Positions 38,274 through 47,873 of a DNA stretch of 64,000 bases are shown here, piece after piece. The notes beneath the pieces were generated by a model. The model was not told the DNA's origin. It worked only from the letters and a program-made list of their open reading frames with translations, and ran no database searches. The position numbers and the translations under genes were made by a program. The stretch's first letter is position 1. Each line of letters begins with the position of its first letter. Origin of the DNA: Lachnospiraceae bacterium (lineage in GTDB: Bacteria > Bacillota > Clostridia > Lachnospirales > Lachnospiraceae); assembly GCA_017439675.1 (NCBI GenBank), contig JAFSIQ010000043.1:58045-122044 (forward strand), written 5' to 3'.

Positions 38274-39062
38274 ATGATGGAACGTGCTTTAAATGTTATT
38301 TTAGTAGAAGATGATGCCCAGACATGTACACGATTTTTGGAGCATGCAGAGACAATTGACAACCTACAATTACTTGGCGTGTCAAACAATTCTTATCGCG
38401 CCTTACAATTGGTAGAACAATATCACCCAGATGCTATTATTTTAGATTTGGAATTACATGACGGTACTGGAAGTGGATTGCAATTTTTGCAGGATTTGAA
38501 AACATTGGACATTCCTTTTATGCCGTATATTTTGGTTACTACCGACAATTCCGGTCACAATACATATGAATGTGCCAGACAATTCGGTGCAGATTTCATC
38601 ATGTCCAAACACGCACCTAATTACAGCGAACTCGAGATTCTTACCCTTCTTAGCATGATGAAAAATGTTATTCACACCAATCAGACATCCGGTACTTCAT
38701 CCCTCACTACGATTGAAACAAAGGACCAATTCGAAAGTCGCATCAAAAAGAGAATTTATATTGAATTGGAAAAGGTAGGGATTCACCCTAGATTCACTGG
38801 TCACAAATATCTGATTGATGCCATCTTTCTTATCATAAGCGATCAACCTAACAATGTGTCCGTAACCATTGCCAAAAAATACGGCAAGACTCACACTAGC
38901 GTAGAACGAGCTATGCAAAATGCCATTGATCGAGCATGGAAGGCGACTGATATTCAGGAACTATTAAAGCATTACACTGCTATCATTCGTTCCGAAAAGG
39001 GAGTTCCAACCATAATTGAATTCATCTCCTATTACGGAAACAAAATCAAATCAGGATACTAA
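38274..39062 (+). CDS. Spo0A-like response regulator, 262 aa
   Basis: Receiver domain at residues ~6-125 with the acidic pocket VEDD, phosphoacceptor Asp58 in IILDLELHDG, VTTDN and MSKHA (Lys). The C-terminal half resembles the Spo0A DNA-binding domain: IYIELEKVGIHPRFTGHKYLIDAI, then VTIAKKYGKTHTSVERAMQNAIDRAW. It diverges from canonical Spo0A ([25 protein letters not shown]), so it is probably a Spo0A paralogue rather than the sporulation master regulator. AAAGGAG lies upstream of two consecutive ATGs; the second (38277) has better spacing. Confidence 0.85.
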   Translation: MMERALNVILVEDDAQTCTRFLEHAETIDNLQLLGVSNNSYRALQLVEQYHPDAIILDLELHDGTGSGLQFLQDLKTLDIPFMPYILVTTDNSGHNTYECARQFGADFIMSKHAPNYSELEILTLLSMMKNVIHTNQTSGTSSLTTIETKDQFESRIKKRIYIELEKVGIHPRFTGHKYLIDAIFLIISDQPNNVSVTIAKKYGKTHTSVERAMQNAIDRAWKATDIQELLKHYTAIIRSEKGVPTIIEFISYYGNKIKSGY

Positions 39063-39150: not shown

Positions 39151-40158
39151 TTACATCTGCTCCTCATAGGTTTGCAGAAAAATCTCTCTCTGTATCACAT
39201 AAATATCTGTACAATCATCTAGTCTTACCGCTAGATAATCTCCTGGTCTTCCAAGAAAATATTCCTGATTGGCATTAGCCGGAAACACCTTCGTTCGTCG
39301 TTTCAGCTCCACTCCATAAATTCCTATTCCTCGCTTCGGATAACAGAGACAGGCCACGTCATCTAAACTGATATACTCCCCATCTGATACCTTTTCGATA
39401 GCCGGAAGAAAATCCAACATCTGCTCAAACACGTCCAATTCCTCATCTGTAGCTTCATAGGTTCTCTCGAACTTTGCCCGGCTAATGTCATACACCTCGC
39501 CGCGACATCCAACCATAATATATGTATCCTCACTAGCGGTTAACAACATCCCAGATTCATTCTCCAAAGACTTGATTCGAACCTGTTCTCCCACCGGCAC
39601 CACGTCCGTAGATTTAACATATGCCCATGCAATCCGCTGCTTTACATATCGTTTCATCTGCTTAATTTCTGCCTCATTCTCTACACCATAACAGTTTGCC
39701 TCAATCCAATCACAATCCTCGTAATAGGACATTGCCATCCGAAGGAAATATTCCATCGTATCCGCCAAATCCATATCTGAAATCTGCACGGACAAAATAG
39801 CAGAGGATATCTGACCACTAGCACAGCCTGCATTACCGCGCACCAAACCAAATTCTGCAATCATATAATCCAAAAATTCTAACGCTCTCACTCTTCTCGT
39901 ATCACTTAAAAACAACAATCGTTCTTCATCTTGCGCCTTCCATGTAAGCAACAAAAAATGACAGGAAAACAGCGAAAGCAACTCCTGCGTATTGGATGTC
40001 CCACTATCTCCCAAGTAGTGCTCTGTCCATCGGTCACCATCGAACTGGCTCACCTGTGCCACCACAAAATCCTGCCCCTCGTACTTATAACACTGTTCTA
40101 TATGAAATTGAGGAAATTCCACATCCAACACTTTGAATCCATACTTTCCTACGTCCAT
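39151..40158 (-). CDS. Unknown protein, last gene of the TIR-cyclase operon, 335 aa
   Basis: ATG 40158 with GAGGAG. No family recognised. The N-terminal half is alpha/beta with a helix-rich middle (EFLDYMIAEFGLVRG). The C-terminal half seems to contain two related segments: DTYIMVGCRGEVYDISRAKFERTYE and CTDIYVIQREIFLQTYEEQ, each reading D-x-Y-x-V/M...I-x-R-x-x-F-x-x-T-Y-E, preceded by a PGDYLAV strand in the second. That suggests a duplicated small beta domain, perhaps ligand-binding. It is separated by 20 nt from the cyclase gene and probably works with it. Confidence 0.7.
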   Translation of the reverse strand: MDVGKYGFKVLDVEFPQFHIEQCYKYEGQDFVVAQVSQFDGDRWTEHYLGDSGTSNTQELLSLFSCHFLLLTWKAQDEERLLFLSDTRRVRALEFLDYMIAEFGLVRGNAGCASGQISSAILSVQISDMDLADTMEYFLRMAMSYYEDCDWIEANCYGVENEAEIKQMKRYVKQRIAWAYVKSTDVVPVGEQVRIKSLENESGMLLTASEDTYIMVGCRGEVYDISRAKFERTYEATDEELDVFEQMLDFLPAIEKVSDGEYISLDDVACLCYPKRGIGIYGVELKRRTKVFPANANQEYFLGRPGDYLAVRLDDCTDIYVIQREIFLQTYEEQM

Positions 40159-40178
40159 AATTCATCTCCTCATATTTT

Positions 40179-41735
40179 TTAAATCATGGCATCCACTTCC
40201 TCATTCACTCTCACTGTGCCTTCAATCTCCATTCCGGAGAATTTCTGAAAGCTACGACTGACATGAGTAAAATGTAATGTCACATGATTGAAATGTCGCT
40301 CTACCACTTTCGCATACACGCCTGTAAAGACTGCTTTGCCATCTGCACCTGCTGCAAAAATTTCTACGTCTGAATACACCTTGAGTTCTGCTTGGAAATC
40401 ATACAATTCCACCACCGCTCGCTTATAAGAATATTCTAGTAACTTGGCGGGTACCGTGTCTTCTTTTACCATCTTATCCTCAATCGGATAGAGGTTAAAT
40501 ACCACCAAATCCTCCGTCGGTTTCATCACATCAAATTCCACATTCGCTATACGCAACTGATATTCCCCACCGATACCAATCACCTCAGAAAGCTCCACTG
40601 GTTTCGCCACACCCTTTGCCACAATTTCCATATGATTGTGAACCTCCACTGGACAAGTGACACATTCTAATGCCTCCTGCGACACCAAAACCTGCCCACC
40701 TACACTGTAGCCTTCAATTCGTGAACACTCGTTGACAATCCTTCCAATTACGTTGTAGCGCATCATTTTCTCTGAACCAACATTGCCGATAAATGTTTCC
40801 CCTCGGTGAATTCCAACTCCCATCTCTAGACCTGGATATCCATTACGCTCGCAAAACCGGTTCACCTCACCCATAAGATTTTGCATAGTGATTGCTGCCG
40901 CGATAGCACATTCAGTCTGTTCCTTTGCCGCAATTGGTGCTCCAAACACTGCCAATACCGCATCCCCTAAAAACTCAATAATCGTACCGCCATAGCGGTT
41001 AATGGCTTCTGCCATTTTTTCAAAGTAGAAATTCAACAATGCGGTAACTGCTTCTGGTTCTAAGGACTCAGACAAGGAGGTAAATCCTCTCAAATCCGAC
41101 ATCATTACTGTAAGCTCTCTCTTCTCTCCACCAATGGCTGCCCCCTGCGGATTATCCAAAATCATATCCAGTACCTTACCGGAAAAATATCGTCCAAATA
41201 TCTGGTAAAGCAATTCATTACGCGCTTCTAACTGCTGATTTAACCGCACAATTTCTCTTGCCGATTGCAAATCTCCTGCCTGTTTTTGTAGCATTTTCTC
41301 ATAGTTCTTAGTCACCTCATGCTGCCATGAAGTGCGTTCCATACGAAGGATATCAACCCGGGTAAATGGCTTCGTCAACACGACCATCGCTCCCCTTTTG
41401 TAGCACTCCTCATCTAGCGTTTCACTTCGCGTCTCCATCATAAAGAAAAAAGGAACTCCAGCCAACGCCTGTTGATTCTTCAAAAACAGCAGTAGCCTAA
41501 ATTCCTCCTCTGATGCCATATCATAATCCAACACAATCAAAGATGGTGTACTGATTCGAGAGCGGATATGGGCATCTTCCAACACACTGACCTTCTCCAC
41601 AGCCTTTTCCACAGCCTGAAAAGAAAGCATGCAAAATGCACGCATGCTTCCAGTGGAATTAATCTGACGCTGCGCTTCAATCATCTCTTTTCTGTTGCTT
41701 CCTATCACCCAGATTATCTTCTCCAATATGTACAC
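40179..41735 (-). CDS. Receiver domain-class III nucleotide cyclase fusion, 518 aa
   Basis: Start appears to be GTG 41735. Residues 1-130: CheY-like receiver (phosphoacceptor Asp70 in LIVLDYD, Lys122 in TKPF). Residues ~140-195: coiled coil. Residues ~205-390: class III cyclase with metal Asp214 (MMSDLRGFTSLSE), Asp258 (FLGDAVLAVFGAP), and transition-state Asn335/Arg339 (GRIVNECSRIE). The base-recognition positions are Glu254 and Asn328, unlike the Lys/Asp(Thr) pair of most adenylyl cyclases. Residues ~430-512 resemble a PilZ-like beta barrel. Product (cAMP, cGMP or other) is open. Middle of a four-gene operon. Confidence 0.9.
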   Translation of the reverse strand: MYILEKIIWVIGSNRKEMIEAQRQINSTGSMRAFCMLSFQAVEKAVEKVSVLEDAHIRSRISTPSLIVLDYDMASEEEFRLLLFLKNQQALAGVPFFFMMETRSETLDEECYKRGAMVVLTKPFTRVDILRMERTSWQHEVTKNYEKMLQKQAGDLQSAREIVRLNQQLEARNELLYQIFGRYFSGKVLDMILDNPQGAAIGGEKRELTVMMSDLRGFTSLSESLEPEAVTALLNFYFEKMAEAINRYGGTIIEFLGDAVLAVFGAPIAAKEQTECAIAAAITMQNLMGEVNRFCERNGYPGLEMGVGIHRGETFIGNVGSEKMMRYNVIGRIVNECSRIEGYSVGGQVLVSQEALECVTCPVEVHNHMEIVAKGVAKPVELSEVIGIGGEYQLRIANVEFDVMKPTEDLVVFNLYPIEDKMVKEDTVPAKLLEYSYKRAVVELYDFQAELKVYSDVEIFAAGADGKAVFTGVYAKVVERHFNHVTLHFTHVSRSFQKFSGMEIEGTVRVNEEVDAMI

Positions 41736-41749
41736 TCACTTTCATTCTA

Positions 41750-42730
41750 TTAATATAAGGAATGCCATGAACCCTTTCTCATATCTGACTTCTTGTCAGG
41801 CCCTCCCGTCTTCTTACAGTTATCGCAAAGCGTTCCTGTTCGAATCGGTGCACCACACTTAGCACAAGGAACACGCACATTGGAATGAATAGGAATCTCC
41901 AAATACTCATCCCTGAAAAAATACTCTATGACTCGTTTGGGCACACCCGTATTGCGCTCAATCACTGCTGCTGGTGCATGCCCCACCTTATCGAGATAAT
42001 TGCGAATGGTCTGGAAATCATCATAACTATCCTTTCCACACTCCACACAACGATAAGTTCCCATTGTAATATTCTCTAACAGCTTACTTCCACAATAATC
42101 GCATTCCAATGGAATACGGTTCATTCGCAATGCATTGGAATCCGCTTTCTTACGAACCATACTTCTTCTCGGAAACTGTGCATCTCCACTTGCATCCTCA
42201 CTTTTCTCATCCAACGTTCCACGCAGTTGTGTATCCGTCGATACCACCACTTTACCACCATCTGCGGAAGGATTCTTCGCATGTGCATTATGAACTCCCG
42301 GCACAGCCTCATCCTCAATCAGAGCAAGTCCCAACAAATCTAACAACTGTTGCTTTAATTCTCCCATAGCTTCTTCCCCATTCTGTTCATAGGAAATCAT
42401 CTGGACGTTGTTAAGATAAAATCGAAATGTATCATTCAACGGAATATCATCAATTTGAAAGGGAATAATCGTCTTTCGATGTGAAATAGCACTATCCGTT
42501 TCCTTCTCTACCCAAATGGATTTCTGAGAAGTGCTAGATAGCACAAGTAAGAAGACTTCACATTCCTTGATTGCCCTTGGAATCTCCCTGGCATAGCTAG
42601 AACCTGCCGGTATCATTTCCGGTGCTTTCCAATAGGAAATCCCTGCATCCTTCATCATGTTCACGATTAAATTTACAAGCTTATGGTCCTGTGAGCTGTA
42701 GCTCACAAAAACGGACTTTGTTCCTGCCAT
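41750..42730 (-). CDS. TIR domain-zinc ribbon protein, 326 aa
   Basis: Residues 1-135 form a TIR domain: KSVFVSYSSQDHKLVNLIVNMM at the start, SSTSQKSIWVEKETDSAI carrying the catalytic-type Glu77 of NAD-cleaving TIR proteins (WVxxE). A ~70-residue linker follows. Then a zinc ribbon with Cys210/213/228/231, a small helix-turn-helix-like segment (YLDKVGHAPAAVIERNTGVPKRVIEYFF, ~245-272) and a second ribbon with Cys289/292/302/305. TIR proteins of bacteria make or cleave NAD-derived signals; the zinc-ribbon tail is unusual and may bind nucleic acid or protein. GGAGG before ATG 42730; 14 nt from the cyclase gene. Confidence 0.9.
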   Translation of the reverse strand: MAGTKSVFVSYSSQDHKLVNLIVNMMKDAGISYWKAPEMIPAGSSYAREIPRAIKECEVFLLVLSSTSQKSIWVEKETDSAISHRKTIIPFQIDDIPLNDTFRFYLNNVQMISYEQNGEEAMGELKQQLLDLLGLALIEDEAVPGVHNAHAKNPSADGGKVVVSTDTQLRGTLDEKSEDASGDAQFPRRSMVRKKADSNALRMNRIPLECDYCGSKLLENITMGTYRCVECGKDSYDDFQTIRNYLDKVGHAPAAVIERNTGVPKRVIEYFFRDEYLEIPIHSNVRVPCAKCGAPIRTGTLCDNCKKTGGPDKKSDMRKGSWHSLY

Positions 42731-42753
42731 ATAGTTTCCTCCAAAATCTGTTG

Positions 42754-43758
42754 CTAATCTTCTGCCACGACTCGGTTCCGCCCTGTCGTCTTCGCTTTAT
42801 ACAATCTACCATCTGCAATTTCAATGTTAGCTTCCACATTGCAATCCACATCTATCTCTTTCACACCAAAAGACATTGTCACCGGAATATCATTGTCCTC
42901 AAAATGACAAACCGCCTGCTCTACAGATTGTCGAATCTCCTCTGCCAACTGCTTTGCTTGTTCTACATTACGTTTTGGTAACAGCAACACAAATTCTTCT
43001 CCTCCCCAACGGAAGGCTTCCCCGCCGCCAACGCGCTCCTGCAACATTCTGCCAATCATCTGTAGCACTGCATCGCCTGCATTGTGCCCATATGTATCAT
43101 TCACCTTCTTAAAGAAATCAATATCACAAATCACAATAGACGCAACATCTTCCTGCAAAACTGGAGCAAGCTCCACATTGTAATATTCGTAGAAAGACCT
43201 TCTATTCTTAAGCTTAGTAAGCGCATCCACATGTGCCGCTTGATAGAGTAAATGCGACTCTAATGTCTTTCCGGAATAAGCCGCCGCCAAAGTCAGACGT
43301 TTTACATCCTTCTCTTCAAAATTACTCTCTCCATTCTCGTCTAACTTATTGATTGCCTGATAGGCTCCAATCACCTCGCCAGCTGTATTGGTCACCGGCA
43401 TACACAAGATGGACTTGGTCAAAAAACCGGTTTCCTTGTCCACTTTAGAATTAAATCTTGCGTCCTTGTAAGGATCATTGATTACAATAATCTCATTACC
43501 TTCAATAGTAGCACCTACAATCCCTGACCCTTCTGGTACAGTAAGCTGTTCTGTATCTGAAGCTACTAGAGTCCAGTACTGATGCTTCTCTTTATCCCAA
43601 TACCAAAAAGATACTCTCTCTGCATTTACCAGGATACGTCCCATATCGGTCAACAGTAATAAGGTCTTCTTAAAATCCTTCTCGTTTACCAAACTGTTCA
43701 TGTAATAAAAAATCTGTTCCAATAACGCTTCTGCGTCTAACTGCTTCTTTCCACCCAT
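42754..43758 (-). CDS. GAF-GGDEF diguanylate cyclase, 334 aa
   Basis: GAF domain at about residues 25-165 (LCMPVTNTAGEVIGAYQAINK) and GGDEF domain at 175-330 with the intact active site WGGEEF (252-256) and DIDFFKKVNDTYGHNAGD; no RxxD inhibitory site is seen at the usual place. Predicted to make c-di-GMP under control of a small molecule bound by GAF. First gene of the operon with TIR, cyclase and unknown genes (23-nt gap to the TIR gene). Confidence 0.93.
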   Translation of the reverse strand: MGGKKQLDAEALLEQIFYYMNSLVNEKDFKKTLLLLTDMGRILVNAERVSFWYWDKEKHQYWTLVASDTEQLTVPEGSGIVGATIEGNEIIVINDPYKDARFNSKVDKETGFLTKSILCMPVTNTAGEVIGAYQAINKLDENGESNFEEKDVKRLTLAAAYSGKTLESHLLYQAAHVDALTKLKNRRSFYEYYNVELAPVLQEDVASIVICDIDFFKKVNDTYGHNAGDAVLQMIGRMLQERVGGGEAFRWGGEEFVLLLPKRNVEQAKQLAEEIRQSVEQAVCHFEDNDIPVTMSFGVKEIDVDCNVEANIEIADGRLYKAKTTGRNRVVAED

Positions 43759-45953: not shown

Positions 45954-47873
45954 TTACATATTTTCCACAATATGCTTCAAGCTATCTGCCATCTCCTGCA
46001 AGCACTGTGTCTGTGCAGAAATCTCTTCTGAACTTGCTGCAATCGTAGAAACCTTCTCCGTCATACCCTCAATTTTATCAATTACCTCACGGATAATGTC
46101 CACGCTTCGGTTTACCTTCGGAATAATCTCCTGTGCCTCCTGATTATTGGCATCAATCAAGGACTTTGTGGAATCAGAAAGGTTACGAATCTCTTCCGCA
46201 ACTACAGCGAAGCCACGTCCCTGCTCACCCGCTCTTGCAGCCTCAATAGATGCATTCAGTGACAACAGATTGGTCTTATTGGCAATGCCAGAAATCTCCA
46301 AGTTACTCTGCTTATAAACTTCAATGAAGTCAACAATCAGCTTAAGTGACTCTGTCAACTCATCACAAATTGTAGAAATATCCTGTACCTCAGCTGCCAA
46401 ATCTGTAGTTTCGTTGGCAGATGCCTCATTTGCCATATTCAGCTCAACTGCTGTATCACGTAAGGAACCGAACTGCTCAAATACTGTCTCTAACGTTTTA
46501 TTCTTTGCCTCATGCTCCATCTGCATCTGTTCGTGCATCTCGCGAATGCTCTCACTCTCTTCCTCTGCCAAATCCTTAATATAATGAATACAATTCTCTT
46601 TCATATTCACATCATTATAGATTGCACACACCATATCCTCACAGGTTTCATAACCACAACAACCACAGTTAATCTCCCGGCTCTCTGGAGTAAACTTCTT
46701 CATGTCTTTAAAGATTGCATCCACATCCATACTACTTGGCTTGCGCATCTCAACTGTCTTATCGCTGTAATGACGCACGAAATCATTCAAATTCAAGGAT
46801 GCAAATTCCTTCATCAAATTGGCAAGTCTGTCTGCTGGTGTCAAGCCATCGGTCACCCATGGGCTAGTTGCTTTCTTCTTCTTACCCACACCAGTAGCTG
46901 CATCCTTATTTGCCAAGGTACGCATCTTAGAAAGTGTCAATAACACGTCATCTGTATTACGGGATGGCTCGGTAGCTGTTCCGTAGATACAACCCTTCTG
47001 ACAGTTCAAGATATCCACCATAAATGGAAGCTCTTTACCCTGACGAATTCTCTTGGAATACTCCTTCAAGTAATGGTAAGCTTCCTGTTCACCTTCCACC
47101 TGTCTTACAACATAATCCTTTCCAAGGAAATGCTCTACGTTCTCGCGAAGACCACCTGGCATTGGATAGATAGCACCTAGACCATAATCAATCTCATCAT
47201 TACATTCCGGTGCATTGCGATATGCATCCCCAATGTATTCCATCATCTTGGAATAGGTTACATTGTAGCTTACATAGCCATGTGTATTCTTATCTGTAAT
47301 TTCGAATTTCTTCGCAATACAAGGACTTAAGAATACCAAATCATCATTGTTATGTAAATACTTCTTCACATAAACTGCCGTACACATCATCGGACTGTGA
47401 ATTGGAACTAAACGGTCAATCAACTCCGGTTGATGTCTTTCAATATAATTCACAATTGCAGGACAAGGTTGGGAAATCCCCCCTGTAAAATTATTCTCTG
47501 TAATATACTTCAGATATGCCCATGTTGTAATGTCTGCACCAAAGGATACGCTATACAAATGATTCACACCCTGCTGTTTCAAATAGCCGAGCACCCTCTT
47601 GTACTCCTTTGGATAATTGGCAATAAATGCAGGCGCGATAATCACAGAAATATTCTTGCCCTTCTTAAGGTCTGCAAAGAAGCGTTCTGTATCATCTTCA
47701 AAATCACGCGCACCATGTGCACAGGAATCAAAACATGCACCACAGGCAATACAAGCTTCCTCATTCACAGTTACTTTTCCCGGTTCGATTGCCACATTGG
47801 ATGTTAGCACCGGACAGGTACGAACGCACTTATTACAACCTGTACACTTTTCGTTTGTAAAAACCAAACTCAT
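45954..47873 (-). CDS. Sensory [FeFe]-hydrogenase-like protein fused to a chemoreceptor signalling domain, 639 aa
   Basis: Two 4Fe-4S ferredoxin sites ([23 protein letters not shown]) in residues 1-55; hydrogenase large-subunit domain ~75-310 with H-cluster cysteines Cys137 (SQPCPA), Cys185 (SPCIAKKFE), Cys291 and Cys295 ([10 protein letters not shown]). The first Cys of the usual TSCCP loop, the proton-relay residue, is Pro, as in sensory rather than catalytic hydrogenases. Then an Fe-S domain (CGCCGYETC, Cys403-411) and a methyl-accepting chemotaxis signalling helix pair ~470-639 ([17 protein letters not shown]). No membrane segment. Predicted cytoplasmic H2/redox sensor feeding CheA. AGGAGG before ATG 47873. 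Confidence 0.92.

Follow-up and report, generated by a model that had tools for sequence, protein, structure and literature searches.

We analyzed a 64,000-nt stretch of DNA from a Lachnospiraceae bacterium (GCA_017439675.1, contig JAFSIQ010000043.1, positions 58,045 to 122,044 of the forward strand; hereafter the window) and focused on an operon whose genes encode a GAF-GGDEF protein, a TIR-zinc ribbon protein, a class III nucleotide cyclase and a 335-residue protein that we call X335. This combination is real and conserved, and its core consists of TIR, cyclase and X335. It looks like an undescribed signaling module and not like a known phage-defence system. We give a probability of roughly 45% to our preferred reading, a conserved chromosomal second-messenger module or relay that is based on cyclic GMP (cGMP) and has a TIR output.

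Composition and conservation of the operon

Four intact open reading frames (ORFs) lie on the minus strand between positions 39151 and 43758, with intergenic gaps of 20, 14 and 23 nt (Table 1). The initial annotation, made from the sequence alone, had described this four-gene composition with the same gaps and its unusual joining of TIR with class III cyclase and GGDEF, and the ORFs bear it out; GGDEF, TIR_2 and Guanylate_cyc score over their Pfam cut-offs. Its single-operon reading is also supported, with the addition of a fifth gene that it had overlooked. This gene encodes an AP_endonuc_2-type TIM barrel (APE), lies 111 nt upstream of the GGDEF gene and is counted as part of the unit, since in many relatives it sits beside the GGDEF gene or is fused to it.

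The X335 alignment was scanned against the genome contigs of 84,980 species, and the best 80 of 241 relatives were kept and sorted by frame length into 52 loci with a short X335 form (L126–L176, L178) and 28 with a long DHH form (L177, L179–L205). Several of the 52 are probably the same contigs as loci L089–L110 and L027, and the sets were not summed. We observed TIR, cyclase and X335 together in 50 of the 52 short-form loci; in the other two (L142, L152) contig ends cut the locus short. L141, which counts among the 50, has a predicted ORF of 83 aa between cyclase and X335. The aligned core proteins are 39–85% identical to those of the window. The alignments used for the residue counts given below leave out the cyclase rows of L142 and L164, the TIR rows of L142 and L152 and the X335 row of L164, a locus later found to hold the trio. 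The names of 51 of the 52 records are Lachnospiraceae or other clostridial ones, the exception (L130) being a metagenome-assembled genome (MAG) labelled Bacteroidales. GGDEF occurs in 29 of the 52 loci, APE in 30 and both in 27, with APE several kb away from the core in L170. Recurrence of the genes together elsewhere had been set as a check in the initial annotation, and these counts answer it in the affirmative.

Neighbouring genes are fused into one ORF in some loci, namely cyclase and X335 in seven (L143, L149, L156, L166, L173–L175) and APE and GGDEF in five (L129, L167, L173–L175; confirmed by Pfam for L129). Independent signaling genes that merely share one promoter would fit the absence of GGDEF from 23 and of APE from 22 of the 52 loci, but the cohesion of the three-gene core at the identities given above and the gene fusions already disfavour this explanation, which we consider very improbable.

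Within the genus a full-length TIR-zinc ribbon protein was found in 18 of 26 genomes (TIR alignment search, E < 1e-80), and 14 of the 16 good genomes (at least 90% complete, at most 5% contaminated) carry the unit; the same search gave 9 of 397 genomes in the family sample, the window's own genome included. The matches listed in a class search beyond the family (391 genomes, 26 matching) were all frames of about 495–555 aa besides the window's own, with no short X335 type among them. None of the 28 long-form loci had a TIR or cyclase gene in the upstream same-strand run, which was empty of genes in eight. Two observations run counter to a clean split between short and long forms: in L027 the core and a gene of the long DHH form occur less than 20 kb apart, and in L038 (6735–9760) the gene immediately upstream of the long DHH form encodes a different TIR protein (TIR-DUF6273), which is a second TIR-DHHA1 association. 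Since the core is also carried by records without a MAG label (Lachnospiraceae bacteria MA2020 and MC2017, Kineothrix sp. MSJ-39), the question is probably open to work in culture.

The cyclase and its predicted product

In the cyclase, D214, E254, D258, N335 and R339 are each invariant (51 of 51 rows). They make up the residue set expected of a class III guanylyl cyclase, with two predicted metal-binding Asp, an Asn-Arg pair and Glu in the place of Lys; this guanylyl signature had not been noted in the initial annotation. The closest match is Cya2 of Synechocystis (PDB 2w01), which shares the fold and 45% identity over 198 residues and whose Glu aligns with E254. It was matched at 1.8e-51 with the single sequence and at 2e-67 with the profile, and ten PADLOC PycC models were matched at best at 2.7e-23, values that are on different scales. 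Glu in place of Lys is the specificity rule for guanylyl cyclases (PMC4215837). Because the cyclase is nearest to Cya2 and keeps the substrate-specifying Glu, cGMP is its likely product as judged from these residues. Cya2 is CHASE2-regulated (PMC5995499), whereas in the operon protein a degenerate receiver precedes the catalytic domain and a beta domain follows it at the C-terminus.

For this C-terminal region no Pfam match was found in the window member, and no Pfam family matched more than one of 20 members. A comparison with PilZ, prompted by the predicted strand order, reached an hhalign probability of 1.4% (E 0.038, 50 columns); the PilZ motifs RxxxR and DxSxxG were not seen by eye in the alignment. 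The region is absent from the cyclase of L101/L103, which ends at 391 aa. Among the 18 carriers, all counted in draft genomes, the operon cyclase is the sole PF00211 match in nine, and PF00027 had no match in three of these nine (G153, G158, G172), which speaks for a non-CRP receptor, perhaps one encoded inside the operon.

X335 as a stand-alone DHHA1 protein

We found that residues 14–148 of X335 have a DHHA1 fold in a confident AlphaFold model (pLDDT 89.9); among the X335 matches at least one row in five covers 14–148 only. The alignment with the long DHH-DHHA1 proteins starts within the DHHA1 part and leaves out their DHH domain (hhalign E 1e-50, X335 residues 61–335). It gave no DHH Pfam match and thus lacks the catalytic domain of a DHH-DHHA1 phosphoesterase, and no Pfam family scored over its cut-off (PGDYG at E 0.15, under cut-off). 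The duplicated small domain noticed in the initial annotation is present, whereas the DHHA1 origin of the protein had escaped it. X335 resembles the phosphodiesterases NrnA, GdpP and TmPDE in its DHHA1 fold but lacks their DHH domain and has lost the GGGH motif; with the long DHH-DHHA1 proteins of Lachnospiraceae it shares the DHHA1 fold and the C-terminal tandem region, again without the DHH domain. Our literature searches found no paper on PGDYG and nothing relevant on DHHA1 among the matches listed.

As a separate observation, some long DHH-DHHA1 genes (L193:3466-8192, L194:3630-8196) stand behind IMP cyclohydrolase and GGDEF-EAL genes (Pfam, L193), perhaps tying pGpG breakdown to purine salvage; their other neighbours are presumably akin to purine-synthesis genes.

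The TIR protein

Glu77 of the TIR domain, which we take to be the catalytic Glu, is conserved in 51 of 51 rows. The domain and this residue together are those expected of a TIR NADase, a prediction from sequence. Conservation of the TIR Glu and of the cyclase Asp had been the second check of the initial annotation, and both turned out to be invariant. The TIR profile matched three solved chains: Cat1, AbTIR (an NAD hydrolase) and one that bears the name Molecular chaperone Tir. The PADLOC models that hit the domain include ThsB and SAVED-TIR. In the zinc ribbon the first four Cys are kept in 50 of 51 rows and the second Cys cluster in 39–40 of 51. The tail matches YvyF/TIGR03826, a flagellar-region family, at E 2.7e-15 with 56.6 bits against a cut-off of 124.15, a similarity at the level of the domain only; the helix-turn-helix (HTH) assignment is our interpretation of this YvyF-like part.

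These tail features raise the alternative of a transcription or motility regulator, in which the TIR domain would be an oligomerisation scaffold for a YvyF-type zinc ribbon and the nucleotides would be ligands only. The YvyF match and the conserved first zinc-ribbon Cys speak for it, as does the fact that c-di-GMP (cyclic di-GMP) often governs motility. However, a scaffold has no need of the invariant putative catalytic Glu, and the YvyF score is under the model cut-off, so that we regard such a regulator as quite unlikely.

Small separate YvyF-like zinc-ribbon proteins without TIR (mostly about 135–175 aa) occur in many genomes of the genus and family, and in L111 one lies beside a GGDEF gene.

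The GGDEF protein and the exchangeable front gene

The GGDEF protein shows an invariant RWGGEE motif and the metal Asp D212 (each 30 of 30 rows), the residues by which a diguanylate cyclase is predicted. Its N-terminal part matched, after the phosphohydrolase 4mcw, the adenylate-cyclase GAF structure 1ykd (which we take to be the cAMP-binding CyaB2) and PDE5 structures. The GAF part also has an NK..F..D pattern in 30 of 30 rows; it appears to us to resemble the NKFDE motif of cyclic-nucleotide GAFs, without being specific.

We observed that the gene in front of the core varies among the loci, and the core is for this reason TIR-cyclase-X335 and not the four-gene set. Upstream of six loci without a GGDEF gene there is a hybrid histidine kinase: a seven-transmembrane (7TM) histidine kinase-receiver-HPt protein in L161, L164 and L168 (tested directly) and L163 (via L108, which we regard as an identical contig). 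In L158 and L160 it is a GAF-histidine kinase-receiver-HPt protein, accompanied by another receiver protein. The 7TM kinases suggest an environmental input in some lineages. A small GAF protein precedes TIR in L150 (Pfam) and, by eye, also in L151, L154 and L158. Unrelated genes take the upstream position in four loci, encoding an aminotransferase in L135 (tested as L027), a helicase in L176, an ion channel in L165 and a glycosidase in L162, and neither GGDEF nor a clear substitute was found in L131, L134, L144, L147, L156, L170 and L178.

A CarD-like gene lies upstream of the 7TM histidine kinase in L164 (3075–3695), and a gene of similar size is found there in L161, L163 and L168.

Defence models and genomic context

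TIR and cyclase genes side by side bring phage defence to mind. In Pycsar (PycC plus PycTIR) a class III cyclase gene likewise adjoins a TIR gene with a cyclic-nucleotide logic, and a Pycsar-like operon would work by infection triggering the cyclase, X335 binding the cyclic nucleotide and TIR depleting NAD (nicotinamide adenine dinucleotide), tuned by GGDEF or histidine kinases. The matches to PycC and TIR defence models and to the solved TIR chains fit this explanation, as do some horizontal movement and several insertion contexts. However, the PycTIR effector has an N-terminal cyclic nucleotide-binding domain (CNBD) and a C-terminal TIR (PMC11224242), while the TIR of the operon is N-terminal and no cNMP_binding Pfam match was found in the four operon proteins up to E 1. 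The pyrimidine-specifying PycC residues are matched neither for clade D (F/K/F; window M212, L256, L261) nor for clade E (F/R/Q; window M212, E254, L256), as placed by our own offset from the metal Asp, and the guanylyl-type Glu stands instead. X335, GGDEF and TIM-barrel genes and the receiver-like N-terminus of the cyclase are further differences from Pycsar. With Thoeris ThsB, Cat1 and AbTIR the operon shares the TIR fold and the conserved Glu but differs by its zinc-ribbon tail, and no ThsA match was found among the four operon proteins, APE and nine window neighbours.

PADLOC gave no match (E 1e-5) in APE and nine flanking window genes, the gene at 45954–47873 being left out. No plasmid relative was found in the plasmid collection, none of the 19 stretches that fit the pattern in one IMG/VR scan of viral contigs was confirmed as a relative, and in the phage collection two unannotated records match X335 weakly (26.7% and 25.7% identity). 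We compared the operon tree with RpoB in 23 of the 25 operon genomes (the RpoB loci retrieved did not include G171 and G172, nor G164, which has no operon). Tree distances were correlated both overall (Mantel r 0.64, n = 23, a value reached by 2 of 5000 permutations) and in the genus only (r 0.56, n = 16, 3 of 5000). G163, G160 and G171 stand outside the main group of the genus, and such misplacements, together with the nesting described below, suggest occasional movement of the unit. Grouping by shared flanks within 6 kb sorts the 18 genus loci into seven contexts, the largest with seven loci.

With the unit in nearly all good genus genomes, no PADLOC match in the flanking window genes scanned and histidine kinases upstream of six loci, the defence reading of the initial annotation is not supported. 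That annotation had called housekeeping signaling and defence equally possible; we favour the signaling module and do not keep the equality, as we consider defence unlikely.

Proposed mechanism

According to our preferred reading of a cGMP-based module, the cyclase would produce cGMP, as predicted from its residues and fold. The GAF domain of the GGDEF protein may read cGMP, whereupon c-di-GMP would be made; GAF similarity and gene linkage point in this direction. X335, a DHHA1 nucleotide-binding domain minus the hydrolase half, is a probable second cGMP receptor, its fold coming from the model and its ligand being conjectural. TIR would act on NAD as the regulated output. Since the cyclase is constantly accompanied by X335 and the TIR protein, the wiring of the core is likely to run from cyclase via nucleotide and X335 to TIR. 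The front gene (APE-GAF-GGDEF, GAF only or hybrid histidine kinase) would be an exchangeable input or output branch. A comparable link is found in Xanthomonas, in which activation by cGMP has been described for a linked GGDEF protein (PMC3770947). Like XC_0250/XC_0249, the operon joins a predicted guanylyl cyclase to a GGDEF protein with an input domain that may bind a cyclic nucleotide; it differs in having a GAF in place of the cyclic-nucleotide domain, other cyclase active-site residues and the additional TIR, X335 and TIM barrel.

Several points weigh against this reading. The top match of the whole GGDEF protein is the metal-dependent phosphohydrolase 4mcw (presumably an HD-GYP protein), ahead of 1ykd and PDE5, and NK..F..D is also present in GAFs that bind no cyclic nucleotide. 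Absence of GGDEF from 23 of the 52 loci, three of them truncated by contig ends (L126, with a fragment, L142 and L152), places c-di-GMP outside the core. The receiver acidic pair (placed at residues 12–13) is not conserved, even behind histidine kinases, which makes phosphorelay control doubtful, and loss of GGGH makes ligand binding by X335 uncertain. Agreement between the operon tree and RpoB is partial, and in the operon tree (midpoint-rooted, branch supports not read) G125 and G358, which belong to two other genera, are placed within the genus, a pattern that mobile units show as well. There are also exceptions to the Glu rule: K-to-E swaps in Ma1120 left ATP preferred, and Cya2 has equal affinity for both substrates (both from PMC4215837), while the guanylyl cyclase XC_0250 lacks the usual transition-state pair (PMC3770947).

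Coordinates and neighbouring genes

The hairpin 3' of X335 is no evidence alone, as the terminator scan gave four sites in the region against a shuffle mean of 3.2. A Spo0A-like response regulator gene (window 38274–39062) is convergent with the operon, and a relative also flanks it in L089 and L090. The gene at 45954–47873 encodes one chain with iron-only hydrogenase large-subunit, ferredoxin and chemotaxis-receptor signaling domains (Pfam), possibly a redox or H2 sensor.

Table 1. Features of the operon, with positions in the window
Feature	Position	Strand	Basis or remark
APE, AP_endonuc_2/xylose-isomerase-like TIM barrel, 260 aa	43870..44652	-	PF01261 E 3e-20; first gene of unit
GAF-GGDEF diguanylate cyclase (predicted), 334 aa	42754..43758	-	PF00990 E 7e-39; GAF_2 E 2e-5, under cut-off
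GGDEF domain, residues 175-329	42772..43236	-	Pfam
TIR-zinc ribbon-HTH protein, 326 aa	41750..42730	-	TIR_2 E 4e-19; YvyF/TIGR03826 under cut-off
TIR domain, residues 7-122, conserved Glu77	42365..42712	-	Pfam; alignment
YvyF-like zinc ribbon plus the adjoining region that has the second Cys cluster, residues 210-307	41810..42103	-	TIGR03826 match
Pseudo-receiver-class III cyclase-C-terminal beta domain, 518 aa	40179..41735	-	Guanylate_cyc over Pfam cut-off; Response_reg under cut-off
Guanylyl-cyclase-type catalytic domain, residues 201-398 (D214, E254, D258, N335, R339)	40542..41135	-	alignment
Cyclase C-terminal domain, residues 400-518, mostly beta	40179..40538	-	model secondary structure
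X335, stand-alone DHHA1 domain and duplicated PGDYG-type C-terminal region, 335 aa	39151..40158	-	hhalign; AlphaFold
X335 DHHA1 domain, residues 14-148	39715..40119	-	
X335 C-terminal tandem region, residues 149-335, common to long DHH proteins	39151..39714	-	hhalign
Terminator-like hairpin 3' of X335, 13-pair stem	39098-39070	-	consensus scan

Significance

The initial annotation knew of no described system with this composition, and in our literature searches no title or abstract start among the papers listed gave a description of the gene set; PMC7159879 treats other cyclase/TIR conflict systems. Bacterial TIR domains are known mainly from immunity, and to our knowledge cGMP signaling in Firmicutes is poorly known. 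By coupling a TIR protein with a predicted source of cGMP (often with a source of c-di-GMP) and a catalytically stripped relative of phosphodiesterases, such a conserved operon would bring three fields of nucleotide signaling together. It is possible, and we propose it tentatively, that the operon is an undescribed TIR system in which a guanylyl cyclase steers a TIR enzyme via a stand-alone DHHA1 receptor, with swappable c-di-GMP, GAF or histidine-kinase branches; NAD chemistry would then serve everyday signaling in Lachnospiraceae and not cell suicide.

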